Shown: piece after piece, positions 1,968 to 25,324 of the stretch
Numbering within the stretch: position 1 is the first letter of the stretch
Layout of the letters: each line of letters starts with the position of its first letter
Assembly (NCBI GenBank): GCA_025403435.1
Contig: CM046347.1
Span: 24,874,597 to 24,938,596, forward strand
Origin: Artocarpus heterophyllus
Taxonomy: Eukaryota; Streptophyta; Magnoliopsida; Rosales; Moraceae
Reading direction: 5' to 3'
Length of the DNA stretch: 64,000 nt
Made by a program: the position numbers and the translations under genes
Notes under the pieces: generated by a model
Databases searched by the model: none
Told to the model about the DNA's origin: nothing
The model's input: the letters and a program-made list of their open reading frames with translations, nothing else

Positions 1968-3564
1968 ATGTCTAAAAACGCTTTATCATCGATACTTGAC
2001 AAAAACCAATTAACCGGTGAGAATTATAACGATTGGAAACGAAACCTGGACATCGTCCTTTCCTTTGAGAAACTAAAATATGTACTGACAACTCCTTGTC
2101 CTCCCGAGCCTACGGGAGACTCAAGTAATGAGCAATTCCAAGCGTATGATCGCTGGAAAGATGCTAATGATCAGGCCCGCTGCTATGTTATGGCAAGCAT
2201 GAACAATGCAGGCTCAACATCAGGATTATGAGACTGCGAAGCAGATCTTGGATAATCTTGAGGATATGTTCGGAGGCCAAGCCATAACGAAGCGACAAGG
2301 GGCGCTTCGGAAACTCTTAAACTATAGACAGAGACCGGGGACATCTGTAAAGGAGCACATGATGTTGGTCATGGGTTACCTCGTTGAGGCTCAAACCAAT
2401 GGAGCCGACATCGATGCTGAAACTCAGATGACTATGGTCTTTGAGACTCTGTCTAAGGAATTTATTCCGTTTAGAGCTACTTTTAATTTAAGCAATAGAC
2501 AAGATATGACCTTAACAGAACTGATGAAACAGTCACAAGAGTTTGAACTGCTGATCAGGGAGTCTCCTGCTGGTGGTGAGGCCAATATGGTAGCTGCTTC
2601 TGGTTCCAATCTTAACTCTGGGAATGGAAAGAAGCAACGGGCCAAGAGTGGGAAGTCTTCTATTCCTCCTACAACCAAGAGCAAGAAGAAGAAGAAGAAG
2701 AACCCACAGAAGCTTAAGTGCTTCTTCTGTAGAAAGGTCGGGCATATAAAGAAGCATTGCAAGGACTTCCTTTCCAAGGGAGGTAGGTGTGATCTTCTAT
2801 ATTTAGAAACTTGTTTAGTTGAGGAATCCAGTGACATCTGGGTCATAGATTCCGGTGCAACTAATCATGTTTGTGTTTCTCTGCAGGGATTCAAAGAAAC
2901 GAGAAGTCAACTTCGTGAAGACTTAACGCTTCGGATGGGCGATGGATCCTTGGTCTCAGCGGAAGCAGTGGGAGATGTCCATCTTTATTTTGATATTTTA
3001 GGAATTTAATTTTGTGAGATTGTTTTTATGTTCCTAAATTTAAAAGGAATTTAATTTCTGTATCTTCTTTATTTAAAGACTCCTACATGGTATCTTTTAA
3101 TGAAAAATTGGTGATTCATAAAAACAAATCTTTTATCTGTTCTGGATGGATGCAAAATAATCTATATTTCATCAAACCTAAGATGGACTTATTGCTTAAT
3201 GCTGAGATAAATGATAATAACTCAAAAAGACCTAAAACTTCTCACTCTAATAAGACTTATCTTTGGCATTTGCGCCTTGGCCATATTAACCTGAATAGGA
3301 TTCAAAGGTTGGTAAGGGATGGACTTTTAAGTCACTTAAAGGTGGAATTGATACCTCAATATGAATCTTGTTTGGAGGGTAAAATGACCAAAAGACCATA
3401 CAGGTCTAATGGCAATAGGGCCGAAGGGGTTCTAGAACTTGTGCATAGTGATGTTTGTGGACCGATGAACATACGGGCACGAGGAGGGTATGAGTACTTT
3501 ATCACTTTTATTGACGATTACTCAAGATATGGGTATGTGTACCTAATGCACCACAAAAGTGAAC
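1968..3564 (+). pseudogene. Copia-A gag-pol, part 1 (gag, protease, start of integrase)
   Basis: The ATG at 1968 opens a copia gag (UBN2/DUF4219 type; GENYNDWKRNL near the N terminus). A Lys-rich tract precedes a CCHC zinc knuckle, CFFCRKVGHIKKHC, near 2720-2760. The aspartic protease motif VIDSGATNH is near 2845. The integrase N-terminal zinc region (WHLRLGHINL, then a Cys) is near 3262-3375, and the core begins with HSDVCGPM near 3445. The frame is broken near 2215 (shift within gag) and near 2995-3010 (small deletion and stop before integrase). The end is the LARD-1 insertion point; the last five bases, tgaac, are one copy of the target duplication. It is not expected to give a functional polyprotein. 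Confidence 0.9.
3560..3564 (+). other. LARD-1 target site duplication, left (tgaac)
   Basis: tgaac here is repeated at 11775-11779. Removing one copy and the element restores continuity with the homologous Copia-B sequence near 29893. Confidence 0.9.
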
Positions 3565-5538
3565 TGTGACACCCGTTATTCTCCTAACGGGTATTGAGGT
3601 AATTAAATTAATTTTTAATGTATAAAAAAAATTGCTTCATTTAAATTTATTTTATAATATTTATTTTTATCTATTTTTAAATTTTCTAAAATTCTCCTAT
3701 ATTTATTTAGTATGATTACTAAAAAGCCTTAGAACTTCTAATAAATCTCAAAAATGTCATATTGGCATTATGTGTGTTAAAGTCTTTAGATGAGACATAA
3801 GGATATCTTTTCCAACTACTCTTGACCCTCATTTTCTTTATTTCCTCCGTGACATGCTTCAACATGTCTCCTCTATAATTGTTTCTATCACTTCTCTTCA
3901 AAGACTTCATCTTTTCTTCCTTTCTCTTCCACGGTTCCCACACTCTTCTTCTCATTTCTTTGCTGAAGCAAAATACTTAGAGAACTTCTTCAAGGCAGCC
4001 ATAAAAATCAGCCACCATCACCTCCATTTGAGCAAGAATTTCAGTCATACCGAAGTAAAGGAACCTGTTTTGAAGCCATTTCAAGCTTCCAACTAACCAT
4101 AATCCGAGGTTAGAATCTTATGAACAAATTTAGTCTTTCATTTATAAATTTTCTTTTATACAAAAGGATTATTCAAATTTGCGTTCTTAAACCTAAGTAT
4201 ATGTTTGTTGCTATTTTGGAGCATATGTATGAAGTCTAAGTGTATATGCCCTAGACAGAAAATTTATATTGTTAAACTTTATAATACCTCTATGGGCAGT
4301 GGTTATTTCTTGAAATTCTAAGATTAAATTAAAATAAATTTTATGAATGTAGTTGTATGTTGTGCTTTAGTTTTAATTGTCCTTATGCACGCCTTAGGAT
4401 CAAGGGAGTATGGAGCTAACGTTAATTGATTCCAGGATTAAGAGACTGTTGATAAGCTTAAAAGGTAGGGATTCTATTACTCATCTTTTGTGAGGTTTTT
4501 ATAGAATTAAAATTGATTGTTTTGCCGCAATATATATATATCTATGTTGAACTGATATTATATGATTATCACATATGAAACTATGACATGGACTCGTCTT
4601 GTATTGTACGGCGAGGAACATAATGAATTTGCACATGTTATAAATTGAGAAGCATGGTTAGGAAAACTAACTCTATTTAATAATGATTCAATATAGAGAA
4701 ATTGTAAGACATGAAGAGGGCGACGGTTACGTCCTTGGGCATGAATACCCTAAAAGGTAAAGTAGGGGGAAGGCGATGACGCTTCCTTGGGTTGAAAGTC
4801 CCAGAACACACTGTACAGGAATCGACTTGGTGAGGACTCGGGGCTTGATGTCCCCTCACCGGAACACCCTTGGAATGTTTATAGGGTGATCAAGTGCGCC
4901 CATTTGGGTTTCGATGAGTTGAGTGATACTCTATTTAACATGGATACCTAGGAACAATAATGATTGGTAATATTTGTATAAATGTGTAATTATGACACTT
5001 GGTAATGATTAACTACGGTATCCATAAGATGTGATCATAATAAACCTCATAATCTGGAATATGATGTAACTTATTAACCATGCAGGTTTTAATGTGGTAA
5101 TGATAAAAACCTAAAGGTGAGTAATGGCTTTCTCTACTGAGCATAGTGTCGCTCATTCCCTTATGTTTATATCTTTTCAGGACTCACTAAGTGTGAGGTG
5201 GCTACGAGAAATATAGTTGAGGAAGTGATGTAACTATATTACATTGGGACTGCTCAATTGTAAAGAATGTTCTTCATGATAATGTAAGCATCAATTGTTA
5301 CTTTCTGTGACTGTAATTATAATGTGTTGAGGGTTAAAATGATGATGACAACAGTTTATATTATTAAATTTAAGGTGCTACATTAAAACTGTGGTTTATT
5401 TATCGTTTATATTTTTATTTTTGAGTTGAGAGTTTTCATTTAAGTCCCGGGCAAATTTTATTTTTAAGGTTTTACTTTTATTATTTATTTTTATTTTATC
5501 TCATTAAAAACTGTTAACCCCCACATAGGGGCGTTACA
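3565..5538 (+). repeat. LARD-1 5' LTR
   Basis: The 1974-bp LTR starts TGTGACACCC and ends GGCGTTACA. A TATA-like stretch, TATAAAAAAA, is at 3621. Short reading frames inside it recur in all four LARD LTRs on both strands and show no protein features. It lacks a ~387-bp block present in the LARD-2 LTRs. Confidence 0.93.
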
Positions 5539-5545
5539 GAATTTT

Positions 5546-5558
5546 TGGTATCAGAGCC
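5546..5558 (+). other. LARD-1 primer-binding site
   Basis: TGGTATCAGAGCC, complementary to the 3' end of plant initiator-Met tRNA, begins 8 bases after the 5' LTR. Confidence 0.88.
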
Positions 5559-6783
5559 TAGGTTCGGTTAACCTAGGGAGTGTAGCACCACTTTAAAAAA
5601 ATATATTTTTGAGATGGTTTTGAAGCTGAATTTTCATTGTCATCATCAAAATGAACCTTCACATTGATTTATACAGTCTAGAAGGATGTAACATGGAAAG
5701 GCCATAGAATGAAAATATTAATAGTTATATGAGTACAATAATTATATAGAAGGAAAGTATTAATAGTTATGAGGGAATGATAATTATATGGAATGAGTTT
5801 ATAAGTAGAATGCTTATGAGAGATTCGTATAATATTAGGATCTATAAGCATATCTAATTCGTATAAACGATGAGAAATTCGTGTAGATACGAGGATTTAA
5901 GAGCCTTTTGTCTCGTGAAAAACAAAAAAAAAAGAAATATAAGGCTTGATTTATTGATTTTAAAGTTTGGCATAGAATGCCAAATTTTTCGTAATTGATT
6001 CAAACCTAAGTAATGATTATGTGTGGATTCGATGGAGCACATAAGTGTCAATGTCTTTTCTTAAAAGTTCTATATATTTGAGGAATATGATATAAGTTGA
6101 AAATCATGGTATTGAATCTTGAGAGAGATAAATGTTAGACTTTTGGTCTGTTGAGACTGTGTAAAGTCTAGAATGCATGAATCTCAAAATTGGAATATTT
6201 TGTTACGTACATTGTATTTAAGTGTATCAGTGAATCTTTTGGTTACCTACGGTTTTGTTATATGAGGAAATTCGATATGGTATAAGTAGAATTGTGGGGA
6301 TTGTAGATGTTCTTAAGTAGTAACATCAAGTGTCTTTGTTCATTGATATGGTCTACGTTGGAAGACGTAAATCGTATTGATTTCAAGGTTAGTCACATTC
6401 TAAACCCTTGGTAGCAATGATGATGAATCCATTGATAGATGTTAAGTATTATGAATAACATATGGGTGTATGCATTGTTCAATAAGGTTTTGATTAAAAC
6501 AAAATTATTTGAGTTGCTGGAAGATTATGTTGTTATGAAATGATTTTAAATATCATTCAGGAAGATCCTTGTTGTCGTTAAATTAGATTTGTTGTTCATA
6601 GTTAACTTTATCTATAGTGGGCTTTGAATTGGGTTTAAGATTCATACAAATTGGTTTTCAATTTTGTGTTTGTTATTTAACTCGTTCTAAATGTGTTAAG
6701 GCCCGAAACAACCTGACCATTTTCAACTAAGAACATTTGGGCCTAGTTCAAATCCTAAATCAGTTTGATTCACACTGTCTCTC
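5559..6783 (+). other. LARD-1 interior, 5' non-coding part
   Basis: This is AT-rich sequence with no credible reading frame. LARD-2 carries the same region (18900-20230, minus) with an extra ~131-bp block at 19423-19553, missing here. The missing block is flanked in LARD-2 by the direct repeat AAAGATTCAC, which fits a repeat-mediated deletion. Confidence 0.7.
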
Positions 6784-6805
6784 CCACGTGGTCTCTATAC
6801 GTGTC
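6784..6805 (+). promoter_or_regulatory. Paired ACGT-core (G-box/ABRE-like) sites upstream of the cargo genes
   Basis: A palindromic G-box, CCACGTGG (6784-6791), is followed by an ABRE-like ACGTGTC (6799-6805), about 230 bases before the first cargo ATG. A CT-rich, 5'UTR-like tract follows (6860-6960). Both sites are intact in LARD-2 near 18858-18880. They could belong to an internal promoter captured with the cargo. That is inference from motifs only. Confidence 0.4.
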
Positions 6806-7031
6806 ATATACAGTGGTTTAATCATTGTTTACATATACGTTTACTGTGCATAGGAGCTTATTTCTCCGAGTTCACTTTTTCTCTCTTAATTTGTTATTTT
6901 CTCTCTAAATCGCAAATCCTCTTCTTTTTCATTAAAAATTCTTCTTTTCCTCTAAAAGAAGAAGGAATTCTAGGATTTTGCAATTTACTATCTTAATTTT
7001 TCCTTTCTATTTACTCTTCTTTCATCTCATC

Positions 7032-7553
7032 ATGGACCCAAAGTACCAACACCTGAGAAAGTATTTCCCATCACACTCCCAAAAGATTCTCAGAAAGAAA
7101 TACAAGGCTAGAATTACTCGGTTGTGGATTCTTATGCGTTTTGGTATCACTTGTGATGTGAGAATGTTGATAGAGGGGAAAATCCGTCCGAGTGACTTTA
7201 GTTAAGATATCGGTTTACCAGGAACAGGTACCAGTCGTAGTGCAATGAAAAGAAGAGCTCGTGCCATCGTGGTCACTTGTAACAAATGTGGAAGACAAAA
7301 TTGTAACGGTAAATGTACTTCACCTGGTTATATGTCTACGAATAGAGAGGATAAAATAAGGTTTTGTAGGGATGGACTTTCAAAGGAGAACTTGGATAGC
7401 ATCCATCCTCCTCTCCATGGTCACCCTAGTGGATATGTTCAAGGAGCTATTTTTAAACTCTGGCCTAAATTTTATACAGAAAGACAACGCCTCAGGAATA
7501 TGGTATTTCTAGATCCTGTTTGCCAAGCCATAAGAAAACTGGATGGGGAATAA
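7032..7553 (+). pseudogene. Small basic Cys-rich protein, resembling plant-virus nucleic-acid-binding protein
   Basis: From the ATG at 7032 one frame runs to a TAA at 7551 and is broken by a single TAA at 7203-7205. The part after the stop is itself open from an ATG at 7245 (102 codons). Visible features are a Lys/Arg-rich N-terminal part, then GTSRSAMKRRARA, then a four-Cys cluster CNKCGRQNCNGKC and a polar tail. A basic Arg cluster directly before a Cys cluster is the layout of the small nucleic-acid-binding protein of carlaviruses and relatives; that link is by pattern only. LARD-2 has a Gln codon where this copy has the stop, but has other breaks. Alternative: a retroelement or host zinc-knuckle protein. 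It lies 641 bases upstream of the LOG-like ATG. Confidence 0.5.
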
Positions 7554-8194
7554 GTCATCGCACTATAAAGGTTATTTAGTCTTTGCTTATTTGAAGCAGT
7601 TTTAGCTGATGTTCAACAGTTTGTGTTTTTCTTTTACTCAGAATATTTGCTTTTGTGTTTGAAATAATTGTGATTATTAGATTGATACAGTAAGTGTTAA
7701 TATCTTATTTAATTTATGACTTTCTTAAATATATATAATAAAATATATTATCTTATTAGACACGTCACATACGGTACAGTAATATGTTTGAATTTTGAAA
7801 AGCTTATCCAGATATTTCAAGATTTGTGTCTCAAATTTCAAAAGTTCTACAGTATTTGTCGTTTATATTAAATTTCTAGACTTGGTGTATATTTGTCAAA
7901 AAGTCTACAGTTGTATCATGAGGGTCTTCTGTCGAATTGTTCTCAATTGTCAAAAGTTATACAATTAGAGTCTAATCTTTTTCAAAAAGTGAATCAGATT
8001 TTCTGTAAACTATCAATCACCTTATCTTACTTTCTTATCCGCACAAGATTTTGTTTAAATCTTTGGATTACCTTTTCATTACCTACTTGTCTATCTCTTT
8101 AGCCCTTTTTGTATATTTCTCATCTTTAAAATCTCATGTAGAACCCGAAGTCTAAGTGGAGCAGACATTAAGCAACCACTTCTATAAACCAAAT
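7554..8194 (+). other. Spacer between the two LARD-1 cargo reading frames
   Basis: About 640 bp of AT-rich sequence without a convincing reading frame. It is retained in LARD-2 with few differences. It could be an untranslated region or the promoter of the LOG-like gene; no clear motif decides. Confidence 0.5.
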
Positions 8195-8845
8195 ATGTAT
8201 ACCTCCCAGTCCACGAAGAAAATAAAGAATGTTTGTGTCTTTTGTGGTTCCAGCTTTGGAAAAGATAAAGCTTATTTAGAAGCTGCAAATCACTTAGGGC
8301 AAGTCCTAGCACACAAGAAGATTAACATAATCTATGGGGGTGGTAGTATAAAAATGATGGTAAATATGGCACTAGCAGCTAGGTCTAGCGACGCTACTGA
8401 TGTAAGAATTTGGCCTCATATTCCAGTTGAAGGAAACCTTTGTAAGGAAGCCATAGGTAAGGGAGAAGGAGTCAGGAGTATCCCTATAAATTTTAAAGAC
8501 ATAATCTATAATTCTGATGCTTTTATAGCATTACCTGGTGGTCTAGGTACTCTTGAGGAAATATTTATAGTTGCTTGTGGGCAATTGTTGGGCTTTTATT
8601 CCAAACCTTTGGGACTGCTGAACGTAAAGGGTTTTTATGACGGTCTTTTGAAATTTCTAGATTACGCTGTGGAAGAAAACATCACTACAGAATCGGAGAG
8701 ACAAATCTTTGTCACTGCTTCAACAGCTGAGGAATTGATAGATAAAATGCAAATCATACATCCAGAATCCGACACTGCAACATCCAAGCTTGAATGGGAA
8801 AGGGAAAGCCGGGAGCGGCCAATTGATTTGAATCTCCATCTGTAA
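8195..8845 (+). CDS. LOG: LOG-like cytokinin riboside 5'-monophosphate phosphoribohydrolase, retrotransposon-borne
   Basis: This 216-residue, uninterrupted frame starts at the ATG at 8195; an in-frame GTG at 8156 is not needed. LOG enzymes release active cytokinin bases from their nucleotides and usually have 210-230 residues. Visible motifs are CVFCGSS (14-20), YGGGSI (47-52), SDAFIALPGGLGTLEE (107-122, containing the family signature PGGxGTxxE) and KPLGLLNVKGFYDGLL (137-152). The frame has no introns, whereas plant LOG genes normally have several, so it looks derived from spliced RNA. Divergence is concentrated in 53-105. The Arg-Lys pair expected eight residues before SDAF is Asn99-Phe100, with Lys101 next to it, so catalysis is uncertain. 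The family call is firm; activity is unknown. Confidence 0.85.
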   Translation: MYTSQSTKKIKNVCVFCGSSFGKDKAYLEAANHLGQVLAHKKINIIYGGGSIKMMVNMALAARSSDATDVRIWPHIPVEGNLCKEAIGKGEGVRSIPINFKDIIYNSDAFIALPGGLGTLEEIFIVACGQLLGFYSKPLGLLNVKGFYDGLLKFLDYAVEENITTESERQIFVTASTAEELIDKMQIIHPESDTATSKLEWERESRERPIDLNLHL

Positions 8846-9786
8846 TCTTTTTGTTTTATCTTTGGCATGTAGGCATGTGTGTCTGTATTTCGTGTGTTAC
8901 GAATAACCGTTTGCCTTGTATTATGTGTTTCTTGTGGTACGTCGTTGTTAAATCTTTTAGATTCATTGAGCCTAATGCCGGGATGGCTGGATACGGAGTA
9001 CTTGATGCTCTCGAAACGCATCCTTCTTAAGGTCCGATCTTTTGTTTATCGATGTTTTTGTATCCTCTAAGCATGCATGATATGGATAGCTGGTATACGG
9101 AGTGCCTTGTACTCTCGAAACGTATCCGTATTATGTTTGTAATGTGTAATATTCTGTTAATATTATGTGGAAGTACCAGAGTCAGTTATGAGGATATTCC
9201 ATATGAAATATGAGTATAGTATTTGGGTTGAATGTTTGTGTCATGAGGATAGCTGTTTAATGAAAAATATGTCGGGTATGTTTGCAACTCTGAGATTCCG
9301 TTTAATATCTCTATGAGTAAGTTTAATGTATATTTTTGAATAAAAGTGTTTGTGATATATGTTTTATGATTATGTTCTAGTTTATTAGTTGAGGTATGAA
9401 ATCAAATATATTTGACTTTTCCTTACTCAAAAAGGAAAAGGAACCTAAAGATGAAGTATATAAAATTTCTCTGGCAATCTCCTTAAATGTGATTGTAAAT
9501 CACAGTCCATGGACAATGAAGGACTGGAATCATGGTATGGTCAATATGTATGCCTGATCAGATTCTTAGACTATTATACGGTGTTATAAGTTGAAACTTG
9601 TCAGAAATACTCTCATTGAGGGATTTAGGAGTAAGATTTATTATGCAAGTAAATAAGTGGAGATACGATAACTTAAATTTGGAGGACAAACAACATTAAC
9701 GGTTTAGACTCAGAATTGGAATCATAGTGGAATCATAATTTTTACTAGTATTGCTAGAATTGAAATTTCGAGGACGAAATTTCTTT
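8846..9786 (+). other. LARD-1 interior, 3' non-coding part
   Basis: AT-rich sequence downstream of the LOG-like gene without a credible gene. It contains two related inverted-repeat segments (8990-9024 and 9092-9127). It is shared with LARD-2, with visibly more differences than the coding part in the first ~100 bases. Confidence 0.6.
8990..9127 (+). repeat. Pair of related short hairpins 3' of the LOG-like gene
   Basis: Two similar units, each with a GGATACGGAGT-type left arm, a centre containing CTCTCGAAACG and a right arm ending in CATCC or TATCC, start about 100 bases apart. Arms such as ATACGGAGT and ACTCTCGAAACGTAT can partly pair. They are conserved in LARD-2 near 16520-16665. They might be 3' processing or packaging structures; there is no direct evidence. 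Confidence 0.45.
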
Positions 9787-9800
9787 AAGGGGGGTAGAGC
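9787..9800 (+). other. LARD-1 polypurine tract
   Basis: AAGGGGGGTAGAGC abuts the 3' LTR and follows GAGGACGAAATTTC. It is the plus-strand primer site expected of an LTR element. Confidence 0.85.
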
Positions 9801-11774
9801 TGTGACACCCGTTATTCTCCTAACGGGTATTGAGGTAATTAAATTAATTTTTAATGTATAAAAAAAATTGCTTCATTTAAATTTATTTTATAATATTTAT
9901 TTTTATCTATTTTTAAATTTTCTAAAATTCTCCTATATTTATTTAGTATGATTACTAAAAAGCCTTAGAACTTCTAATAAATCTCAAAAATGTCATATTG
10001 GCATTATGTGTGTTAAAGTCTTTAGATGAGACATAAGGATATCTTTTCCAACTACTCTTGACCCTCATTTTCTTTATTTCCTCCGTGACATGCTTCAACA
10101 TGTCTCCTCTATAATTGTTTCTATCACTTCTCTTCAAAGACTTCATCTTTTCTTCCTTTCTCTTCCACGGTTCCCACACTCTTCTTCTCATTTCTTTGCT
10201 GAAGCAAAATACTTAGAGAACTTCTTCAAGGCAGCCATAAAAATCAGCCACCATCACCTCCATTTGAGCAAGAATTTCAGTCATACCGAAGTAAAGGAAC
10301 CTGTTTTGAAGCCATTTCAAGCTTCCAACTAACCATAATCCGAGGTTAGAATCTTATGAACAAATTTAGTCTTTCATTTATAAATTTTCTTTTATACAAA
10401 AGGATTATTCAAATTTGCGTTCTTAAACCTAAGTATATGTTTGTTGCTATTTTGGAGCATATGTATGAAGTCTAAGTGTATATGCCCTAGACAGAAAATT
10501 TATATTGTTAAACTTTATAATACCTCTATGGGCAGTGGTTATTTCTTGAAATTCTAAGATTAAATTAAAATAAATTTTATGAATGTAGTTGTATGTTGTG
10601 CTTTAGTTTTAATTGTCCTTATGCACGCCTTAGGATCAAGGGAGTATGGAGCTAACGTTAATTGATTCCAGGATTAAGAGACTGTTGATAAGCTTAAAAG
10701 GTAGGGATTCTATTACTCATCTTTTGTGAGGTTTTTATAGAATTAAAATTGATTGTTTTGCCGCAATATATATATATCTATGTTGAACTGATATTATATG
10801 ATTATCACATATGAAACTATGACATGGACTCGTCTTGTATTGTACGGCGAGGAACATAATGAATTTGCACATGTTATAAATTGAGAAGCATGGTTAGGAA
10901 AACTAACTCTATTTAATAATGATTCAATATAGAGAAATTGTAAGACATGAAGAGGGCGACGGTTACGTCCTTGGGCATGAATACCCTAAAAGGTAAAGTA
11001 GGGGGAAGGCGATGACGCTTCCTTGGGTTGAAAGTCCCAGAACACACTGTACAGGAATCGACTTGGTGAGGACTCGGGGCTTGATGTCCCCTCACCGGAA
11101 CACCCTTGGAATGTTTATAGGGTGATCAAGTGCGCCCATTTGGGTTTCGATGAGTTGAGTGATACTCTATTTAACATGGATACCTAGGAACAATAATGAT
11201 TGGTAATATTTGTATAAATGTGTAATTATGACACTTGGTAATGATTAACTACGGTATCCATAAGATGTGATCATAATAAACCTCATAATCTGGAATATGA
11301 TGTAACTTATTAACCATGCAGGTTTTAATGTGGTAATGATAAAAACCTAAAGGTGAGTAATGGCTTTCTCTACTGAGCATAGTGTCGCTCATTCCCTTAT
11401 GTTTATATCTTTTCAGGACTCACTAAGTGTGAGGTGGCTACGAGAAATATAGTTGAGGAAGTGATGTAACTATATTACATTGGGACTGCTCAATTGTAAA
11501 GAATGTTCTTCATGATAATGTAAGCATCAATTGTTACTTTCTGTGACTGTAATTATAATGTGTTGAGGGTTAAAATGATGATGACAACAGTTTATATTAT
11601 TAAATTTAAGGTGCTACATTAAAACTGTGGTTTATTTATCGTTTATATTTTTATTTTTGAGTTGAGAGTTTTCATTTAAGTCCCGGGCAAATTTTATTTT
11701 TAAGGTTTTACTTTTATTATTTATTTTTATTTTATCTCATTAAAAACTGTTAACCCCCACATAGGGGCGTTACA
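9801..11774 (+). repeat. LARD-1 3' LTR
   Basis: 1974 bp, the same length as the 5' LTR and identical in every stretch I compared, at a constant offset of 6236. Confidence 0.93.
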
Positions 11775-11779
11775 TGAAC
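11775..11779 (+). other. LARD-1 target site duplication, right (tgaac)
   Basis: Matches 3560-3564 exactly. Confidence 0.9.
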
Positions 11780-13490: not shown

Positions 13491-15848
13491 TGTAACGCCC
13501 CTATATGGGGGTTAACAGTTTTTAATGAGATAAAATAAAAATAAATAATAAAAGTAAAACCTTAAAAATAAAATTTGCCCGGGACTTAAATGAAAACTCT
13601 CAACTCAAAAATAAAAATATAAACGATAAATAAACCACAGTTTTAATGTAGCACCTTAAATTTTATAATATAAACTGTTGTCATCATCATTTTAACCCTC
13701 AACACATTGTAATACAGTCACAGAAAGTAACAATTGATGCTTACATTATCATGAAGAACATTCTCAACAATTGAAGCAGTCCCAATGTAATATAGCTACA
13801 TCACTTCGTCAACTATATTTCTCGTAGCCACCTCACACTTAGTGAGTCTTGAAAAGATAAAAATATAAGGGAATGAGCGACACTATGCTCAGTAGAGAAA
13901 GCCATTACTCACCTTTAGGTTTTTATCATTACCACATTAAAACCTGCATGGTTAGTAAGTTACATCATATTCCAGATTATGAGGTTTATTATGATCACAT
14001 CTTATGGATACCGTAGTTAATCATTACCAAGTGTCATAATTACACATTTATACAAATATTACCAATCATCATTGTTCCTAGGTATCCATGTTAAATAGAG
14101 TATCACTCAACTCATCGAAACCCAAATGGACGCACTTGATCACCCTATAAACATTCCAAGGGTGTTCCGGTGAGGGGACATCAAGCCCCGAGTCCTCACC
14201 AAATCGATTCCTGTACAGTGTGTTCTGGGACTTTCAACCCAAGGAAGCGTCATCGCCTTCCCCCTATTTTACCTTTTAGGGTATTCATGCCCAAGGACGT
14301 AACCGTCGCCCTCTTCATGTCTCACAATTTCTCTATATTGAATCATTATTAATAGAGTTAGTTTTCCTAACCATGCTTCTCAATTTATAACATGTGTCAA
14401 TTCATTATGTTCCTCGCCGTACAATACAAGACGAGTCCATGTCATAGTTTCATATGTGATACTCATATAATATTAGTTCAACATAGATATATATATTGCG
14501 GCAAAACAATCAATTTTAATTCTATAAAAACCTCACAAAAGATGAGTAATAGAATCCCTACCTTTCAAGCTTATCAACAATCTTTTAATCTTGGAATCAA
14601 TTAACGTTAGCTCCATACTCCCTTGATCCTAAGGCGTGCATAAGGACAATTAAAACTAAAGCACAACATACAACTACATTCATAAATAAATCATGTGTAA
14701 ACCTATCTTACTAGTATGCCATTAAAGCTTTTATATAAATCTCTTTTGAATACCACAGTAAACAATTTTTGTCTTAACACAATATAAAATGTGAACAAGT
14801 AATCTATATGTTTTAGTCCCTAATAAGATTCATCAATCACTTAGGATAATATTGGAAAGGTTGCAAGACATTAAAGAATTAGGTGGTGAGCAAAGATGGG
14901 TTCTTGGTTCAGGTTAGCAGCTGATATACCATAACAAACTGGCAGATTTACTAGTTTCCAATACAAAAATTGAATAATTCTTAGAAAATAAAATACAACT
15001 CCGATTTAGGTTTATGATAGCTCGTTAGAAAGCCTAGGATGCTACTTTTCAAATATGCAAACCAATTCATAAAATTCATTTTAATTTAATCTTAGAATTT
15101 CAAGAAATAACCACTGCCCATAGAGGTATTACAAAGTTTAACAATATAAATTTTCTGTCTAGGGCATATACACTTAGACTTCATACATATGCTCCAAAAT
15201 AGCAACAAACATATACTTAGGTTTAAGAACGCAAATTTGAATAATCCTTTAGTATAAAAGAAAATTTATAAATGAAAGACTAAATTTGTTCATAAGATTC
15301 TAACCTCGGATTATGGTTAGTTGGAAGCTTGAAATGGCTTCAAAACAGGTTCCTTTACTTCGGTATGACTGAAATTCTTGCTCAAATGGAGGTGATGGTG
15401 GCTGATTTTTATGGCTGCCTTGAAGAAGTTCTCTAAGTATTTTGCTTCAGCAAAGAAATGAGAAGAAGAGTGTGGGAACCGTGGAAGAGAAAGGAAGAAA
15501 CGATGAAGTCTTTGAAGAGAAGTGATAGAAACAATTATAGAGGAGACATGTTGAAGCATGTCACGGAGGAAATAAAGAAAATGAGGGTCAAGAGTAGTTG
15601 GAAAAGATATCCTTATGTCTCATCTAAAGACTTTAACACACATAATGCCAATATGACATTTTTGAGATTTATTAGAAGTTCTAAGGCTTTTTGGTAATCA
15701 TACTAAATAAATATAGGAGAATTTTAGAAAATTTAAAAATAGATAAAAATAAATATTATAAAATAAATTTAAATGAAGCAATTTTTTTTATACACTAAAA
15801 ATTAATTTAATTTCCTCAATACCCGTTAGGAGAATAACGGGTGTCACA
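13491..15848 (-). repeat. LARD-2 3' LTR
   Basis: 2358 bp on the minus strand. Direct repeats ATTCATAAA at 14678-14686 and 15065-15073 bound the block absent from LARD-1 LTRs. Confidence 0.92.
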
Positions 15849-15863
15849 GCTCTACCCCCCTTA
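15849..15863 (-). other. LARD-2 polypurine tract
   Basis: The complement of GCTCTACCCCCCTTA lies next to the LTR and matches the LARD-1 tract. Confidence 0.82.
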
Positions 15864-16811
15864 AAGAAATTTCGTCCTCGAAATTTCAATTCTAGCAATA
15901 CTAGTAAAAATTTTAATTCCATTATGATTCCAATTACGAGTCTAAACTGTTAATGTTGTTTGTCCTCCAAATTTAAGTCATCGTATCTCCACTTATTTAC
16001 TTGCATAATAAATCTTACTCCTAAATCCCTCAATGAGAGTATTTCTGACAAGTTTCAACTTATAACACCGTATAATAGTCTAAGAATCTGATCAGGCATA
16101 CATATTGACCATATCATGATTTCAGTCCTTCATTGTCCATGGACTGTGATTTACAATCACATTTAAGGAGATTGCTAGAGAAATTTTATATACTTCATCT
16201 TTAGGTTCCTTTTCCTTTTTGAGTAAAGAAAAGTCAAATATATTTGATTTCATACCTCAACTAATAAACTAGAACATAATCATAAAACATATATCACAAA
16301 CACTTCTATTCAAAACCATACATTAAACTTATTCATAGAGATATTAAACGGAATCTCTGGTTGCAAACATACCCGACATATTTTTCATTAAACAGCTATC
16401 CTCATTAAACAAACATTCAACCCAAATAATATACTCATATTTCATATGGAATATCCCCATAACTGACTTTGGTACTTCCACATAATATTAACAGAATATT
16501 ACACATTACAAACATGATACGGATACGTTTCGAGAGTACAAGGCACTCCGTATACCAGCTATCCATATCATGCATGCTTAGAGGATACAAAAACATCGAT
16601 AAACAAAAGATCGGACCTTAAGAAGGATGCGTTTCGAGAGCATCAAGTACTCCGTATCCAGCCATCCCGGCATTAGGCTCAATGAATCTAAAAGATTTAA
16701 CAAGGACGTACCACAAAAAAAAAAAAAAACACAGAATACAAAGTAAACGGTTATTCGTAACACACGAAATGCGGACACACATGCCTACATGCCATAGATA
16801 AAACCAAAAGA
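15864..16811 (-). other. LARD-2 interior, 3' non-coding part
   Basis: Counterpart of 8846-9786. It contains the two related hairpin segments (about 16520-16665) and a 16-A run near 16715 (T run on the element strand) absent from LARD-1. No gene is seen. Confidence 0.6.
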
Positions 16812-17462
16812 TTACAGATGGAGATTCAAATCAATTGGCCGCTCCGGGCTTTCCCTTTCCCATTCAAGCTTGGATGTTGCAGTGTCGGATTCTGGATGTA
16901 TGATTTGCATTTTATCTATTAATTCCTCAGCTGTTGAAGCAGTAACAAAGATTTGTCTCTCCGATTCTGTAGTGATGTTTTCTTCCACAACGTAATCTAG
17001 AAATTTCAAAAGACCGTCATAAAAACCATTTACATTCAGCAGTCCCAAAGGTTTGGAATAAAAGCCCAACAATTGCCCGCAAGCAACTACGAATATTTCC
17101 TCAAGAGTACCTAGACCACCAAGTAATGCTATAAAAGCATCAGAATTATAGATTATGTCTTTAAAATTTCTAGGGATACTCCTGACTCCTTCTCCCTTAC
17201 CTATGGCTTCCTTATAAAGGTTTCCTTCAACTGGAATATGAGGCCAAATTCTTACAACAGTAGCGTCGCTAGACCTAGCTGCTAGTGCCATATTTTCCAT
17301 CATTTTTATACTACCACCCCCATAGATTATGTTAATCTTCTTGTGTGCTAGGACTTGTCCTAAGTGATTTGCAGCTTCTAAATAAGCTTTATCTTTTCCA
17401 AGGCTGGAACCACAAAAGACACAAACATTCTTTATTTTCTTCGTGGACTGGGAGGTAGACAT
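16812..17462 (-). CDS. LOG: LOG-like gene, LARD-2 copy
   Basis: A 216-residue intronless frame from the ATG at 17462 (complement), uninterrupted and the same length as the LARD-1 copy. By hand I count about 17 base differences between the copies, 11 changing an amino acid and 6 silent. Here the signature reads LLGGLGTLEE (Pro to Leu at residue 114) and residue 98 is Arg instead of Ile. Loss of the conserved Pro in the nucleotide-binding loop may impair function. The ratio of changes suggests weak constraint at most. The Cys-rich frame lies upstream, as in LARD-1. Confidence 0.82.
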   Translation of the reverse strand: MSTSQSTKKIKNVCVFCGSSLGKDKAYLEAANHLGQVLAHKKINIIYGGGSIKMMENMALAARSSDATVVRIWPHIPVEGNLYKEAIGKGEGVRSIPRNFKDIIYNSDAFIALLGGLGTLEEIFVVACGQLLGFYSKPLGLLNVNGFYDGLLKFLDYVVEENITTESERQIFVTASTAEELIDKMQIIHPESDTATSKLEWERESPERPIDLNLHL

Positions 17463-18109
17463 ATTTGGTTTATAGAAGTGGTTGCTTAATGTCTGCTCCA
17501 CTTAGACTTCGGGTTCTACATGAGATTTTAAAGATGAGAAATATACAAAAAGGGCTAAAGAGATAGACGAGTAGGTAATGAAAAGGTAATCCAAAGATTT
17601 AAACAAAATCTTGTGCGGATAAGAAAGTAAGATAAGGTGATTGATAGTTTACAGAAAATCTGATTCACTTTTTGAAAAAGATTAGACTCTAATTGTATAA
17701 CTTTTGACAATTGAGAACAATTTGACAGAAGACCCTCTTGACACAACTGTAGACTTTTTGACAAATATACACCAAGTCTAGAAATTTAATATAAACGACA
17801 AATACTGTAGAACTTTTGAAATTTGAGACACAAATCTTGAAATATCTGGATAAGCTTTTCAAAATTCAAACATATTACTGTACCGTATGTGACGTGTCTG
17901 ATAAGATAATATATTTTATTATATATATATATATTTAAGAAAATCATAAATTAAATAAGATATTAACACGTACTGTATCAATCTAATAATCACAATTATT
18001 TCAAACACAAAAGCAAATATTCTGAGTAAAAGAAAAACACAAACTGTTGAACATCAGCTAAAACTGCTTCAAATAAGTAAAGACTAAATAACCTTTATAG
18101 AGCGATGAC
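17463..18109 (-). other. Spacer between the two LARD-2 cargo frames
   Basis: Counterpart of 7554-8194, with few differences. A longer TA run lies near 17915-17932. No gene is seen. Confidence 0.5.
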
Positions 18110-18631
18110 TTATTCCCCATCCAGTTTTCTTATTGCTTGGCAAACAGGATCTAAAAATACCATATTCCTGAGGCGTTGTCTTTCTGCATAAAATTTGGGC
18201 CAGAGTTTAAAAATAGCTCCTTGAACATATCCACTAGGGTGACCATGAAGAGGAGGATGGATGCTATCCAAGTTCTCCTTTGAAAGTCCATCCCTACAAA
18301 ACCTTATTTTATCCTCTCTATTCGTAGACATATAACAAGGTGAAGTACATTTACCGTTACAATTTTGTCTTCCACATTTGTTACAAGCGACCACGATGGC
18401 ACGGGCTCTTCTTTTCATTGCACTACGACTGGTACCCGTTCCTGGTAAACCGACATCTTGACTAAAGTCACTCGGACGGATTTTCCCTCTATCAACATTC
18501 TCACATCACAAGGGATGCCAAAATGCATAAGAATCCACAACCGAGTAATTCTAGCCTTGTATTTCTTTCTGAGAATCTTTTGGGAGAGTGATGGGAAATA
18601 CTTTCTCAGGTGTTGGTACTTTGGGTCCGTG
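18110..18631 (-). pseudogene. Small basic Cys-rich protein, LARD-2 copy, broken at its 5' end
   Basis: The 102-codon downstream part (complement 18110-18418, ATG at 18418) is open and differs from LARD-1 at three residues (Thr to Ala, Gly to Cys, Thr to Ala); the four-Cys cluster is intact. The upstream part is damaged differently from LARD-1. The ATG equivalent to 7032 is ACG, and one G is missing in the run equivalent to 7176-7179. The codon that is TAA in LARD-1 is CAA here. The breaks are therefore independent, suggesting a longer intact frame in their common ancestor. Confidence 0.5.
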
Positions 18632-20232
18632 ATGAGATGAAAGAAGAGTAAATAGAAAGGAAAAATTAAGATAGTAAATTGCAGAATCCTAGAATTCCTT
18701 CTTCTTTTAGAGGAAAAGAAGAATTTCTAATGAAAAAGAAGAGGATTTGCGATTTAGAGAGAAAATAACAAATTAAGAGAGAAAAAGTGAACTCGGAGAA
18801 ATAAGCTCTTATGCACAGTAAACGTATATGTAAACAATAATTAAACCACTGTATATGACACGTATAGAGACCACGTGGGAGAGACAGTGTGAATCAAACT
18901 GATTTAAGATTTAAACTAGGCCCAAATGTTCTAAGTTGAAAATGGTCAGGTTGTTTCGGGCCTTAACACATTTGGAACGAGTTAAATAACAAACATAAAA
19001 TTGAAAACCAATTCGTATGAATCTTAAACCCAATTCAAAGCCCACTATAGATAAAGTTAACTATAAACAACAAATCTAATTTAACGACAACAAGGATCTT
19101 CCTGAATGATATTTAAAATCATTTCATAACAACATAATCTTCCAGCAACTCAAATAATTTTGTTTTAATCAAAACCTTATTGAACAATGCATACACCCAT
19201 ATGTTATTCCTAATACTCAACATCTATCAATGGATTCATCATCATTGCTACCAAGGGTTTAGAATGTGACTAACCTTGAAATCAATACGATTTACGTCTT
19301 TCAATGTAGACTATATCAACGAACAAAGACACTTGATGTTACTACTTAAGAACATCTACAATCCCCACAATTCTACTTATACAATATATAATTTCCTCAT
19401 ATAACAAAACCTTAAGTAACCAAAAGATTCACATCTAAACATCTAAAACTTAAACATTTTATCGTAATTATCCAAAATTATTATAAGTGCCTTAAGTATT
19501 ATGATTTACTTAAGGAAACTCCTATTGATCATTTTTCTATTGCATCTATATATAAAGATTCACTGATACACTTAAATACAATGTACGTAACAAAATATTC
19601 CAATTTTGAGATTCATGCATTCTAGACTTTACACAGCCTCAACAGACCAAAAGTCTAACATTTATCTCTCTCAAGATTCAATACCATGATTCCCAACTTA
19701 TATCATATTCCTCAAATAAATAGAACTTTTAAGAAAAGATATTGACACTTATGTGCTCCATCGAATCCACACATAATCATTACTTAGGTTTGAATCAATT
19801 ACGAAAATTTTGGCATATCTATGTCAAACTTTAAAATCAATAAATCAAGCCTTATATTTCTTATTGTTTTTCACGAGACAAAAGGCTTTTAAATCCTCTT
19901 ATTTATACGAATTTCTCATCGTTTATACGAATTAGATATGCTTATAGATCCAAATATTATACGAATCTCTCATAAGCAATCTACTTATAAACTCATTCCA
20001 TATAATTATCATTCCCTCATAACTATTAATACTTTCATTCTATATAATTATTGTACTCATATAACTATTAATATTTTCATTCTATGGCCTTTCCATGTTA
20101 CATCCTTCTAGACTGTATAAATCAATGTGAAGGTTCATTTTGATGATGACAATGAAAATTCAACTTCAAAACCATCTCAAAAATATTTTTTTTTTTAAAG
20201 TGATGCTACACTCCCTAGGTTAACCGAACCTA
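18632..20232 (-). other. LARD-2 interior, 5' non-coding part
   Basis: Counterpart of LARD-1 5559-7031, including the two ACGT-core sites (about 18858-18880). It has an extra block at 19423-19553 between AAAGATTCAC repeats. No gene is seen. Confidence 0.6.
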
Positions 20233-20245
20233 GGCTCTGATACCA
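20233..20245 (-). other. LARD-2 primer-binding site
   Basis: The complement of GGCTCTGATACCA gives TGGTATCAGAGCC, the initiator-Met tRNA site, next to the 5' LTR. Confidence 0.88.
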
Positions 20246-20252
20246 AAAATTC

Positions 20253-22609
20253 TGTAACGCCCCTATATGGGGGTTAACAGTTTTTAATGAGATAAAATAA
20301 AAATAAATAATAAAAGTAAAACCTTAAAAATAAAATTTGCCCAGGGACTTAAATGAAAACTCTCAACTCAAAAATAAAAATATAAACGATAAATAAACCA
20401 CAGTTTTAATGTAGCACCTTAAATTTTATAATATAAACTGTTGTCATCATCATTTTAACCCTCAACACATTGTAATACAGTCACAGAAAGTAACAATTGA
20501 TGCTTACATTATCATGAAGAACATTCTCAACAATTGAAGCAGTCCCAATGAAATATAGCTACATCACTTCGTCAACTATATTTCTCGTAGCCACCTCACA
20601 CTTAGTGAGTCCTGAAAAGATAAAAATATAAGGGAATGAGCGACACTATGCTCAATAGAGAAAGCCATTACTCACCTTTAGGTTTTTATCCTTACCACAT
20701 TAAAACCTGCATGGTTAGTAAGTTACATCATATTCCAGATTATGAGGTTTATTATGATCACATCTTATGGATACCGTAGTTAATCATTACCAAGTGTCAT
20801 AATTACACATTTATACAAATATTACCAATCATCATTGTTCCTAGGTATCCATGTTAAATAGAGTATCACTCAACTCATCGAAACCCAAATGGGCGCACTT
20901 GATCACCCTATAAACATTCCAAGGGTGTTCCGGTGAGGGAACATCAAGCCCGGAGTCCTCACCAAATCGATTCCTATACAGTGTGTTCTGGGACTTTCAA
21001 CCCAAGGAAGCGTCATCGCCTTCCCCCTATTTTACCTTTTAGGGTATTCATGCTCAAGGACGTAACCGTCGCCCTCTTCATGTCTCACAATTTCTCTATA
21101 TTGAATCATTATTAATAGAGTTAGTTTTCCTAACCATGCTTCTCAATTTATAACATGTGTCAATTCATTATGTTCCTCGCCGTACAATACAAGACGAGTC
21201 CATGTCATAGTTTCATATGTGATACTCATATAATATTAGTTCAACATAGATATATATATTGCGGCAAAACAATCAATTTTAATTCTATAAAAACCTCACA
21301 AAAGATGAGTAATAGAATCCCTCCCTTTCAAGCTTATCAACAATCTTTTAATCCTGGAATCAATTAACGTTAGCTCCATACTCCCTTGATCCTAAGGCGT
21401 GCATAAGGACAATTAAAACTAAAGCACAACATACAACTACATTCATAAATAAATCATGTGTAAACCTATCTTACTAGTATGCCATTAAAGCTTTTATATA
21501 AATCTCTTTTGAATACCACAGTAAACAATTTTTGTCTTAACACAATATAAAATGTGAACAAGTAATCTATATGTTTTAGACCCTAATAAGATTCATCAAT
21601 CACTTAGGATAATATTGGAAAGGTTGCAAGACATTAAAGAATTAGGTGGTGAGCAAAGATGGGTTCTTGGTTCAGGTTAGCAGCTGATATACCATAACAA
21701 ACTGGCAGATTTACTAGTTTCCAATACAAAAATTGAATAATTCTTAGAAAATAAAATACAACTCCGATTTAGGTTTATGATAGCTCGTTAGAAAGCCTAG
21801 GATGCTACTTTTCAAATATGCAAACCAATTCATAAAATTCATTTTAATTTAATCTTAGAATTTCAAGAAATAACCACTGCCCATTGAGGTATTACAAAGT
21901 TTAACAATATAAATTTTCTGTCTAGGGCATATACACTTAGACTTCATACATATGCTCCAAAATAGCAACAAACATATACTTAGGTTTAAGAACGCAAATT
22001 TGAATAATCCTTTAGTATAAAAGAAAATTTATAAATGAAAAACTAAATTTGTTCATAAGATTCTAACCTCGGATTATGATTAGTTGGAAGCTTGAAATGG
22101 CTTCAAAACAGGTTCCTTTACTTCGGTATGACTGAAATTCTTGCTCAAATGGAGGTGATGGTGGCTGATTTTTATGGCTGCCTTGAAGAAGTTCTCTAAG
22201 TATTTTGCTTCAGCAAAGAAATGAGAAGAAGAGTGTGGGAACCGTGGAAGAGAAAGGAAGAAAAGATGAAGTCTTTGAAGAGAAGTGATAGAAACAATTA
22301 TAGAGGAGACATGTTGAAGCATGTCACGGAGGAAATAAAGAAAATGAGGGTCAAGAGTAGTTGGAAAAGATATCCTTATGTCTCATCTAAAGACTTTAAC
22401 ACATAATGCCAATATGACATTTTTGAGATTTATTAGAAGTTCTAAGGCTTTTTAGTAATCATACTAAATAAATATAGGAGAATTTTAGAAAATTTAAAAA
22501 TAGATAAAAATAAATATTATAAAATAAATTTAAATGCAGCAATTTTTTTTATACACTAAAAATTAATTTAATTACCTCAATACCCGTTAGGAGAATAACG
22601 GGTGTCACA
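20253..22609 (-). repeat. LARD-2 5' LTR
   Basis: 2357 bp. It differs from the partner LTR by about 20 substitutions plus small indels (an extra A near 20343; a missing two-base unit near 22400). Confidence 0.92.
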
Positions 22610-22614
22610 TTTGC
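22610..22614 (+). other. LARD-2 target site duplication, right (tttgc)
   Basis: Matches 13486-13490 exactly. Confidence 0.9.
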
Positions 22615-23229
22615 ACTCGACCGGATATTAGCTATGCGGTCGGGATTGTAAGTCGATTTCAGGCGGATCTAGAACCGAACCATTGGGTTGCGGTAAAGCA
22701 TATTTTCAAGTACCTGAGAAGGACTCGAGGGTATATGCTTGTGTATTCGGGTGAGGACTTGACTCCTCTAGGATACACTGATTCAGATTTTCAATCCTGT
22801 CTGGATTCTAGGAAATCGACTTTGGGGTTTGTGTTTACTCTGGGTGGCGGTGCCATCAGTTGGAGAAGTGCGAAGCAAGATTGCACTTCGGATTCAACGA
22901 TGGAGGCCAAATATGTGGCGGCTAGTGATGCTTCGAAAGAAGCAGTGTGGCTCCGCAAGTTCCTTGGGGATCTTGAGGTAGTTCTTGGTATGGATAAGGT
23001 GGTATCACTGTACTGTGATAACAGTGCGGCGGTAGATAATGCTAAGGAACCAAGATTTCACAAGAAGAGTAAGCATATTGATCGGAAGTATCATGTGATA
23101 AAGGACTTCGTTGGGGGCGGGCATGTCACGGTGTGCAAGATTGCGTCAGAGGATAATTTAGCTGATCCATTTACGAAGACACTTACTGGGAGAGTCTTCG
23201 AGAGGCATGTGGAAGCTATGGGGATGTGA
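22615..23229 (+). pseudogene. Copia-A gag-pol, part 3 (end of RT and RNase H)
   Basis: The final part of pol after the LARD-2 insertion. It reads YTDSDFQSCLDSRKSTLGFV near 22770-22830 and carries the copia RNase H motifs (SWRSAKQDCTSDSTMEAKYV, then YCDNSAA near 23010, KSKHID near 23065). It ends at a TGA at 23227-23229. This part is open, but the polyprotein is already cut upstream. Confidence 0.88.
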
Positions 23230-23255
23230 AATTTGCTGTATTTACTCACTTAGTG

Positions 23256-23267
23256 CAAGTGGGAGAT
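23256..23267 (+). other. Copia-A polypurine tract
   Basis: A purine-rich AAGTGGGAGAT directly precedes the 3' LTR. The identical sequence precedes the Copia-B 3' LTR. Confidence 0.8.
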
Positions 23268-25324
23268 TGTTAGACATGTATGCCCTAAGGAGTAAAAATG
23301 TAATTCATTTTTTGGAGACATTTTTATCAATAAAGAATTTATTCATTTATATATATCAAATCTTGTCCTCTTTACGTTCATATTTGTTGAATGTATGATA
23401 AGCAAACAGTAGTCTGAGACTGTCAGTCTAAACCTTAAGAGTTGGGCATATGATGGACTGATTATGCGGAAGACACGATTCTTAAGGAGGTGGTCTAAAA
23501 CATATGATCCGCAATCGAGGGAATAAAGTTGGGCGCTTTATTCATGTAAAGATTGTTATGTTGTCTATATCCCTACTAGGAGATGATTTGTCTTGACCAT
23601 CGGAGTTGGACTCTGTGAATAGAAACATTGGCACGTTGTCATAGGTGACGATGTGTTGGATCGGGACATAAAGTGAATTGATTTAGATTAATAATTCTGT
23701 CTTGGCAAATTTATTCACTTTAGACAGTCATTTGTATTGTATCTTAATCCTGAGATGAATAGTAGGCCCGTTGTCTCGACTTGTGTCTTTTGATGTACCA
23801 ATGGGTGACTCCCACATCTCTATAGTGGTATGCATGCCGGTACGTTGGAGGCATGACTCTTGATAGTGTAGACTTGTTATTCATAGATATGGAATCCATA
23901 GCTCCTCTTTAGGAGTAATGATAACCTCTTATATGCGTTGTCCTGTAATTGGAAAATTGGAGCGCTCAACTATTTAGATACATAGGTGTAACCGAATGGT
24001 ATACTATCTTTGGATGGTAAGTTTTCTAATGGTGAGACAATGGAACGTAAGATAAAAATAATCGGGAAGGTAAGACAAAACTTGTCCTTAAGCCGATTAT
24101 GGATTATCATATGGGAACACGATACACTTTGATATGCCATGGAGACTTAGCTACACGAGCTTCGTAATTCTATAAAGTTCGAGAGTGCAGCTGTAAGCTT
24201 TTAGTGGAGTAGCGTTGGAGTTAATAATTGTGAAATGTATATCTGGGATATTGGGTTTCATAATTATCATGAGCTTGAACTTTATAGGTCCATTTTGGTC
24301 CCCTTTGCTAGCTCACAAAATCCTGTAACGACACGGCGTGCTTTTCCAATAATTGGTGACTTATGTCGGATTTATCAGATTGGTTTAAAATTTGTAAGAA
24401 TCAAATAATTTATGTCTGTTTATCGGTTGAATTAATTTTGTAAGAAATTAGTTCAAGATAAACTTGTTGAATTATTGCGATCAGATAATTCTTGTATGTT
24501 TTTCGGTTGTTTTAATTTTGGACAAATTAGAACAAGATAAACTTGTAGAATTATTGTGAATTGATTTATTTTCTTAGAGATTATCTTGATAAAGTTTGTT
24601 TTGATCAGATAACTTCTCTATTGGGTTATTTAAATCAAAACTGAGACTTTAACCTTTAGAATCTCGAGTGGAAAATAACAGATTCGAGAAGATTTTTTCT
24701 CGGGAGTTCGGCCTACCGGGTGACGTCTTCGGCCTGCCAAACTGGCCTGTTCGGCCTGCCGAACTGAATGTTCGGCCTGCCGAACTGAATGTTCGGCCTA
24801 CCGATCAACGGGAGATAAGATTACGCGTTTTCACACGAATCTTATCAGATACTGATCCAAACTTGATTCTGTTTCGAGTTTTTGAGACCTAATCTAATAT
24901 GGACTGACCCTAGGACCAATAGGTTTAAAAAGGGAGTGAGTCTCATGATTTACTCAGATCAATTTGAGAGATTAAGAGTGATACTCTTCTAGTGAGCATC
25001 TGAAAACTCTCTGAGAGCTTTTGTTCACAAATCACGAGCACTAGCTTTGGGTTCTCTCTGTTGGTTGGAAGGAGAGTCATCGGTGGAAGAGCTGTACGTG
25101 TGAGCCCACACTCACTCCGGTTGTGGATAGAGAATAGCAAACAAGACCAGTTGGTTGAGGCTCTTTTGGAACGTTACTTCTCTACACAGGTTGCGGAGGT
25201 TCTTCGGCACACTGAGGTTAGTAAGATCTGTTTAATTTATACATATAACATGTCAAACTTGTGTTTTGGAAATTACTCTGATGAAAAATTTTAAAAAATT
25301 CCGCTGCGCACTTTGTTTCCAACA
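23268..25324 (+). repeat. Copia-A 3' LTR
   Basis: 2057 bp, starting TGTTAGACATG and ending TTTCCAACA. A minisatellite of the reverse-complement unit (TTCGGCCTGCCGAA) is at 24706-24806. About 120 bases on there is a weak TATA-like TTTAAAAAG near 24925, so the repeat lies in U3 if that is the promoter. Confidence 0.92.
24706..24806 (+). repeat. Minisatellite TTCGGCCTGCCGAA in the copia U3
   Basis: Five degenerate units, in the orientation opposite to those in the leader at 751-1013. Confidence 0.8.

Follow-up and report, generated by a model that had tools for sequence, protein, structure and literature searches.

Structure of the two elements in the window

The window analysed here is a 64,000 nucleotide stretch of the Artocarpus heterophyllus genome (contig CM046347.1), and all positions refer to it. 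It carries an LTR element of 8,210 bp (3565-11774; copy 1) and a second, inverted copy. Copy 1 has the paired LTRs with TG..CA ends, short target site duplication (TSD), primer-binding site (PBS), and polypurine tract (PPT) of an LTR retrotransposon. In this respect the initial annotation was accurate, the LTRs being identical over 1,974 bp with TGAAC on both sides. The features are as follows.

Copy 1
3560-3564, no strand: left TSD, TGAAC
3565-5538, + strand: 5' LTR, TG...CA, 1,974 bp, 100% identical to 9801-11774
5546-5558, + strand: PBS, TGGTATCAGAGCC, after the 5' LTR
7032-7553, + strand: Cys-rich frame resembling viral nucleic-acid-binding proteins (NABPs), 173 codons and stop, broken here at codon 58, which is a stop (7203-7205)
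8195-8845, + strand: LOG-family frame, 216 aa, intact, single and uninterrupted
8480-8494, + strand: LOG codons 96-100, I-P-I-N-F against the canonical M-H-x-R-K, catalytic Arg99 lost
8822-8842, + strand: EAR-like C-terminal tail of LOG, IDLNLHL (LxLxL)
9767-9800, + strand: PPT region, resembling the PPT of the Ty3/gypsy element at ~48.6-57.4 kb
9801-11774, + strand: 3' LTR, 1,974 bp, identical to the 5' LTR
11775-11779, no strand: right TSD, TGAAC

Copy 2, inverted relative to copy 1
13491-22609, - strand: whole copy, 9,119 bp, TSD TTTGC
16812-17462, - strand: LOG frame, 216 aa, with LGG in place of PGG
18110-18630, - strand: Cys-rich/NABP frame, frameshifted and with the start codon lost

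The PBS is presumably of the tRNA-Met type, and AAGGGGGGTAG lies directly upstream of the 3' LTR of copy 1. As had been proposed, copy 2 carries both frames, with a LOG frame of the same length; its LTRs differ at 19 of 2,356 positions (0.81%). The two copies split a copia host, whereas a related copia stretch (~29.6-30.2 and 31.6 kb) is uninterrupted at these points. With nine gag/pol pieces from the Ty3/gypsy and copia elements of the same window as queries, tblastn (E up to 1) found no gag or pol match inside the interior of either copy, in agreement with the initial annotation. Four matches of 13 residues at the LTR ends represent a copia frame that continues into the copy 2 LTR.

There are 38 ATGs in the leader ahead of the NABP frame, which makes its translation from a full-length RNA unlikely, so that an internal promoter or splicing has to be assumed. 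A scan for prokaryotic promoters and terminators was uninformative (19 against 18.3 in shuffled sequences).

Large retrotransposon derivatives (LARDs) have long LTRs, a PBS, and a PPT, and are devoid of gag and pol. Copy 1 agrees with these in its retained LTRs and priming sites and in the absence of gag and pol, but the interior of a LARD is non-coding, while this one has two protein frames. With neither gag nor pol in its interior it does not encode the reverse transcriptase and integrase of an autonomous Ty3/gypsy element. There is, however, a resemblance to the Ty3/gypsy element at ~48.6-57.4 kb, typed by its Pfam pol domains: 28 bp of 93% identity across the PPT of copy 1, similar LTR ends and PBS, and TGGTATCAGAGC after its 5' LTR as well. 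These likenesses, from a single element compared, would fit a derived non-autonomous Ty3/gypsy element and are a lead to descent, not proof of it.

The family in the host genome

In the 985 Mb host assembly there are 2,800 PPT/LTR junctions of this element family. Forty junctions were sampled in listing order, the stretches read at each being LOG and NABP only; within this narrow scope no autonomous partner of the family came to light. The LOG frame is present at 39 of the 40 and intact at 36; the NABP frame is likewise present at 39 and is intact at 34, always within LTR elements and at a fixed place ahead of LOG. In a separate sample, 47 of 51 copies have the NABP frame intact as 173 aa. The Cys-rich gene that had been annotated is thus broken in both copies in the window and intact in most of those sampled elsewhere. 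That a mobile element is spreading a LOG gene is borne out by these numbers, and two of the points that had been named as fatal to this idea, an occurrence in just two decaying copies and the lack of a coding pattern, do not fit the genome: the family is large and its frames are mostly intact.

The same two genes are found in the same order, fused, in two Citrus gene models, an arrangement that is new within the literature searched. The longest contig is 8,723 bases for both a LOG relative (P0054) and an NABP relative (P0136), which is only suggestive.

The NABP-like protein

The Cys-rich frame belongs to a large plant family that matches carlavirus NABPs (PF01623; also PF05515), a kinship overlooked in the initial annotation. 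The broken frames of the window score 17.1 and 16.1 bits against PF01623, below the Pfam cut-off of 20.9, which is exceeded by seven of the nine relatives scanned. The plant proteins share with the carlavirus NABPs a basic cluster (104 of 122 relatives) followed by a Cys-based finger, C-x2-C-x4-C-x2..4-C (108 of 122). They differ in their length of ~173-185 aa, in being carried here by LTR elements, and in a conserved C-terminal part outside the region matched by the viral profiles. The AlphaFold model of one relative, P0122, is poor (pLDDT 47.9). In viral contigs, none of 48 pattern matches to NABP relatives was confirmed.

NABP-related proteins of plant viruses can block gene silencing. Searches of the open-licence literature found no report of an NABP gene in retrotransposons; the part of PMC3136472 available to us describes an endogenous flexivirus replicase-like sequence and no NABP. 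The apparent viral kinship of this frame, together with selection on its shared variants, would therefore be new as far as these searches go. The NABP gene may have had a viral origin long ago.

The LOG-derived protein

The intact 216-residue LOG-family frame of the initial annotation is confirmed in copy 1, where the PF03641 score is 77.4 bits (cut-off 27) and the protein has the LOG fold. The motif PGGxGTxxE is present in copy 1 with both Glu residues; LGG is found in copy 2 and in one sampled copy (L065), and a Citrus relative (P0226) has PGDLATLEA. In CgLOG, according to the sections of PMC4979012 available, Arg99, Met96, and Lys100 serve catalysis and adenine binding, and Ala at AMP-binding and catalytic residues nearly abolishes activity. 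These three are Asn, Ile, and Phe in the element protein, and the glycine loop GLMG is KMMV. These replacements make cytokinin activation by the element LOG unlikely, and on the basis of its residues the protein is probably no cytokinin activator; the description of the frame as a hormone-activation gene is not supported. Unlike the plant LOG cytokinin riboside 5'-monophosphate phosphoribohydrolases, it is without the catalytic Arg and the adenine-site residues, is encoded by one uninterrupted frame, has an EAR-like tail, and sits on a long tree branch. It is 45-49% identical to Populus relatives over the full frame, with a core free of gaps.

The EAR motif is defined as LxLxL, to which the tail IDLNLHL conforms, and it may bind co-repressors. 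Such a tail is present in 89 of 107 LOG relatives, a count drawn from the best 120 of 5,210 matches plus the two window copies and including many near-copies; 13 of the 18 relatives without it end before the tail position. The shuffling control addresses composition only, and the three Leu columns of 20 representatives, picked for having the tail, prove nothing alone. The tail does recur in divergent LOG relatives. Both the tail and the loss of catalytic Arg99 are new within the literature searched.

A LOG-type domain in plant Ty3/gypsy elements is already published and is not new: YgdH (LOG) domains occur in Ty3/gypsy elements of Citrus sinensis and C. clementina, and with a laxer filter Populus trichocarpa, as given in the accessible portion of PMC9289625, which cites Steinbauerova et al. 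2011 on such elements. Those elements share with the present family a LOG-family extra domain. Their consensuses were built on reverse-transcriptase regions and therefore carry pol, unlike the present family, and in that portion their description includes no NABP partner, loss of catalytic residues, tail, or selection. The same source describes Phalaenopsis Ty3/gypsy elements with AlkB, an m6A demethylase in vitro; these are likewise LTR elements that carry an additional protein, one of a type found in some flexiviruses, differing in their 25 kbp length and in the domain carried. No mention of LOG in retrotransposons was found in PMC7264820.

Selection and age

Purifying selection is seen on NABP variants shared between copies, and this signal is clearer than that for LOG. 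In the junction sample (39 rows from 40 sites) omega is 0.23 for shared NABP variants and 0.84 for singletons. When three divergent or short rows are removed the contrast is weaker, 0.23 against 0.79 (Fisher p 0.036), and in a pooled set of 85 rows, in which some loci may occur twice, it is 0.21 against 0.78. Over two copy samples, shared variants have an omega of 0.20-0.23. For LOG in the junction sample, the values are 0.54 for shared variants (p 0.027) and 1.0 for singletons (Fisher p 0.16); without two divergent copies they are 0.57 (p 0.13) and 0.60 (Fisher p 1.0). Selection on the LOG frame inside the host genome is therefore weak. A shared omega of 0.32 in both versions of an analysis of 52 copies chosen by LOG score was biased and is superseded by the junction sample. 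LTR divergence is 0-0.81% in the six copies measured, and this youth by itself largely explains the intactness of the frames.

Interpretation and alternatives

The explanation we favour, at about even confidence, is that of a non-autonomous LTR family, young and present in very high copy number, in which two cargo genes replace gag and pol. The family would probably derive from a Ty3/gypsy element and depend on a Ty3/gypsy relative for mobilisation in trans. Its first gene, encoding the basic Cys-finger protein of the carlavirus kind, would bind small RNAs, or the RNA or DNA of the element, and make host silencing less effective against the copy that encodes it or the RNA of that copy. Instead of working as a hormone enzyme, the second, a LOG-fold protein missing residues of the cytokinin-releasing site and ending in LxLxL, may provide a scaffold or a decoy that TOPLESS-type co-repressors bind.

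The most serious competitor, which we consider rather unlikely, has the NABP as a nucleocapsid-like RNA chaperone that loads element RNA into partner particles, standing in for gag instead of opposing silencing, with LOG a weakly constrained passenger. The prevalent finger and basic cluster fit this, as does the weak selection on LOG, and selection on NABP in an element without gag suggests action in cis; however, LOG is kept beside NABP at 39 of 40 sites and in the two Citrus models, and divergent relatives have its tail too. That both frames are inert passengers, intact only because the element amplified recently, accords with the low LTR divergence and the neutral appearance of singletons. 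This is improbable given the low omega of shared NABP variants, the gap-free LOG core at 45-49% identity to Populus, and a gene order common to Citrus.

More doubtful still is an active LOG releasing cytokinin, from which the element would gain through more dividing, less silenced meristem cells. The fold, the PGGxGTxxE motif of copy 1, and the 36 intact frames speak for it, but the altered glycine loop and residues 96, 99, and 100, the near loss of CgLOG activity when AMP-binding and catalytic residues are made Ala (PMC4979012), and the changed PGG motifs of copy 2, L065, and P0226 speak against it. Finally, the PF01623/PF05515 similarity could be taken to mean that the frame is no retrotransposon gene but belongs to endogenous remnants of a carlavirus-like RNA virus. 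We regard this as extremely improbable: the frame's location refutes it, within LTR elements and before LOG at 39 of 40 junctions, and the conserved C-terminal part extends beyond the region matched by the viral profiles.

Significance

Non-autonomous LTR elements are usually viewed as passengers without coding function. That an element without gag and pol keeps a gene with purifying selection on its shared variants has to be explained by a benefit in cis, and with this family the question of what a transposon must encode for itself becomes testable. Plant RNA viruses and retrotransposons are linked through a common protein of the silencing-suppressor kind, and genes annotated as LOG in plants, the Populus 'LOGL10' models for example, may in some cases belong to elements and have ceased to make hormone.

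More speculatively, and on balance doubtfully, there may be a widespread class of plant LTR elements with a conserved anti-silencing cassette, in which a carlavirus-type NABP stands beside a non-catalytic, EAR-tailed LOG effector that acts against host transcriptional repression, and whose gag- and pol-less parasites keep only this cassette and reach thousands of copies. If so, defence against silencing, and not the enzymes of replication, would be the indispensable gene set of such parasites.

Structure of the element in the window

Features of the window
3565-11774: copy 1, an LTR element; LTRs of 1,974 bp with zero differences, perfect target site duplication (TSD) TGAAC, primer site TGGTATCAGAGCC, polypurine tract
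13491-22609, minus strand: copy 2, with its own TSD, TTTGC, and the same two frames as copy 1
22610-34282: duplicated stretches of families D1-D3, D11, D12, D14 and D18, many 7.5-9 kb apart
38757-39311: frame whose sequence, by eye, resembles the N-terminal region of cyclic-nucleotide-gated channels, presumably of the CNGC19/20 type
48656-57367: Ty3/gypsy element, split into several separate frames that hold pieces of gag, protease, RT, RNase H and integrase

The initial annotation of copy 1, with identical LTRs, perfect TSD, primer site and polypurine tract, is confirmed, and its interpretation is partly supported. The reported absence of gag and pol from the interior also holds, there being no match to nine gag/pol pieces from the window's own elements. 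In copy 2, the LTRs have 19 differences over 2,356 positions. Judged by its frames and an uninterrupted relative elsewhere, one copia element is interrupted by both copies. Both the LOG and Cys-rich frames recur in copy 2, as claimed, but the Cys-rich frame is disrupted in both copies.

Abundance and intactness of the family

A 34-base polypurine/LTR pattern, allowing at most 2 mismatches, matches the host assembly (985,004,640 bases, 334 contigs) 2,800 times, and its reversed control 0 times. A first look gave 6,098 LOG and 5,234 Cys-rich candidates, 150 being scored for each. The junction sample took perfect matches only, regardless of LOG, as the first 20 of contig 1 and the first 20 of contig 2 in listing order. 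LOG was found at 39 of these 40 sites (36 intact, 3 broken or cut), bearing out the spread of the element beyond the window, and the Cys-rich frame likewise at 39 (34 intact, 3 broken, 2 partial), with both intact at 33 in a combined tally. In the LOG-chosen sample (50 copies by LOG score plus the two window copies), LOG is intact in 51/52; the Cys-rich frame is present in 51 copies, and 47 of these have it intact.

LTR-LTR divergence is 0 to 0.81% in the six copies with both LTRs measured. One of these, L014, has identical LTRs but no matching TSD. Its left flank, AGAGC, is a sequence with which the polypurine stretch of the family also ends, and it is perhaps a tandem or recombined copy. There are two LTR length classes, ~1.97 kb (L013, L014, L016 and copy 1) versus ~2.35 kb (L009, L010, L012, L015, L018 and copy 2), differing by a ~380-bp block near LTR position 780.

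The Cys-rich gene

In single-sequence Pfam searches the window Cys-rich frames score weakly against Carla_C4 (17.1 and 16.1 bits, under the 20.9 cut-off), and kinship with the carlavirus nucleic-acid-binding protein (NABP, PF01623) is instead proposed because their relatives match. Eight relatives were found initially (best E 1.4e-76) and 848 by profile search, with precomputed PF01623 annotation in all 120 of those listed. Among nine rescanned, the best E was 4.5e-8 for PF05515 and 1.5e-6 for PF01623; seven passed the PF01623 cut-off, P0242 fell under it and P0177 had no PF01623 match at E 0.01. The finger C-x2-C-x4-C-x2..4-C is present in 108, a basic cluster in 104 and the string NREDKI in 103 of 122 proteins (P0121-P0242). 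Where hosts are named, they are rosids or the asterid Orobanche. NABP-like proteins of this parasite include P0125, P0126 and P0186, with no Orobanche LOG among the 120 LOG matches listed, so that NABP may occur without LOG.

Selection on the Cys-rich gene was gauged in the junction sample. Variants shared by at least two sampled copies, which barring recurrent mutation mostly predate insertion, comprise 16 synonymous and 9 non-synonymous changes (omega 0.23, p 0.0003), whereas singletons comprise 21 and 43 (omega 0.84, p 0.30); the contrast has a Fisher p of 0.009. Without three divergent or short rows the values are 0.23 versus 0.79 (Fisher p 0.036), and the LOG-chosen sample shows the same trend (0.20 versus 0.94). 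That a gag-less element has kept this gene suggests that it works in cis.

Proposed mechanism

The LTR ends, PBS and PPT are similar to those of the Ty3/gypsy element at ~48.6-57.4 kb, so that Ty3/gypsy machinery could mobilise this gag/pol-less element. The leader contains 38 ATGs, which would require expression of the frames from an internal promoter or by splicing. The hormone-activation role initially given to the LOG frame is unlikely; the LOG-derived protein may act via its C-terminal LxLxL tail, an EAR-like motif with putative TOPLESS binding. NABP might shield the element from silencing. Viral proteins of this kind are described as suppressors of RNA silencing or as acting on transcription (PMC12172455).

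Origin of the gene pair

LOG in gypsy elements has already been described. A limited search of open-licence literature found no description of a NABP relative in retrotransposons, of the NABP-LOG pair or of the lost LOG catalytic site. The survey by Neumann et al. (PMC6317226) tallied extra frames of at least 250 codons only, whereas the Cys-rich and LOG frames here are both under 250 codons. The Populus 'LOGL10' models P0008, P0016 and P0040 are of the tail-bearing, Lys-less LOG type, and these annotated genes may be element genes.

Two Citrus x changshan-huyou gene models fuse NABP and LOG sequence in the same order, and both terminate in LDLTLRL; one, P0226, has PGDLATLEA where the PGG motif is expected. 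Citrus elements with a LOG (YgdH) domain were assembled from reverse-transcriptase-containing regions (PMC9289625). Together these point to an autonomous ancestor with both genes, of which the family in the window is likely a derivative without gag and pol.
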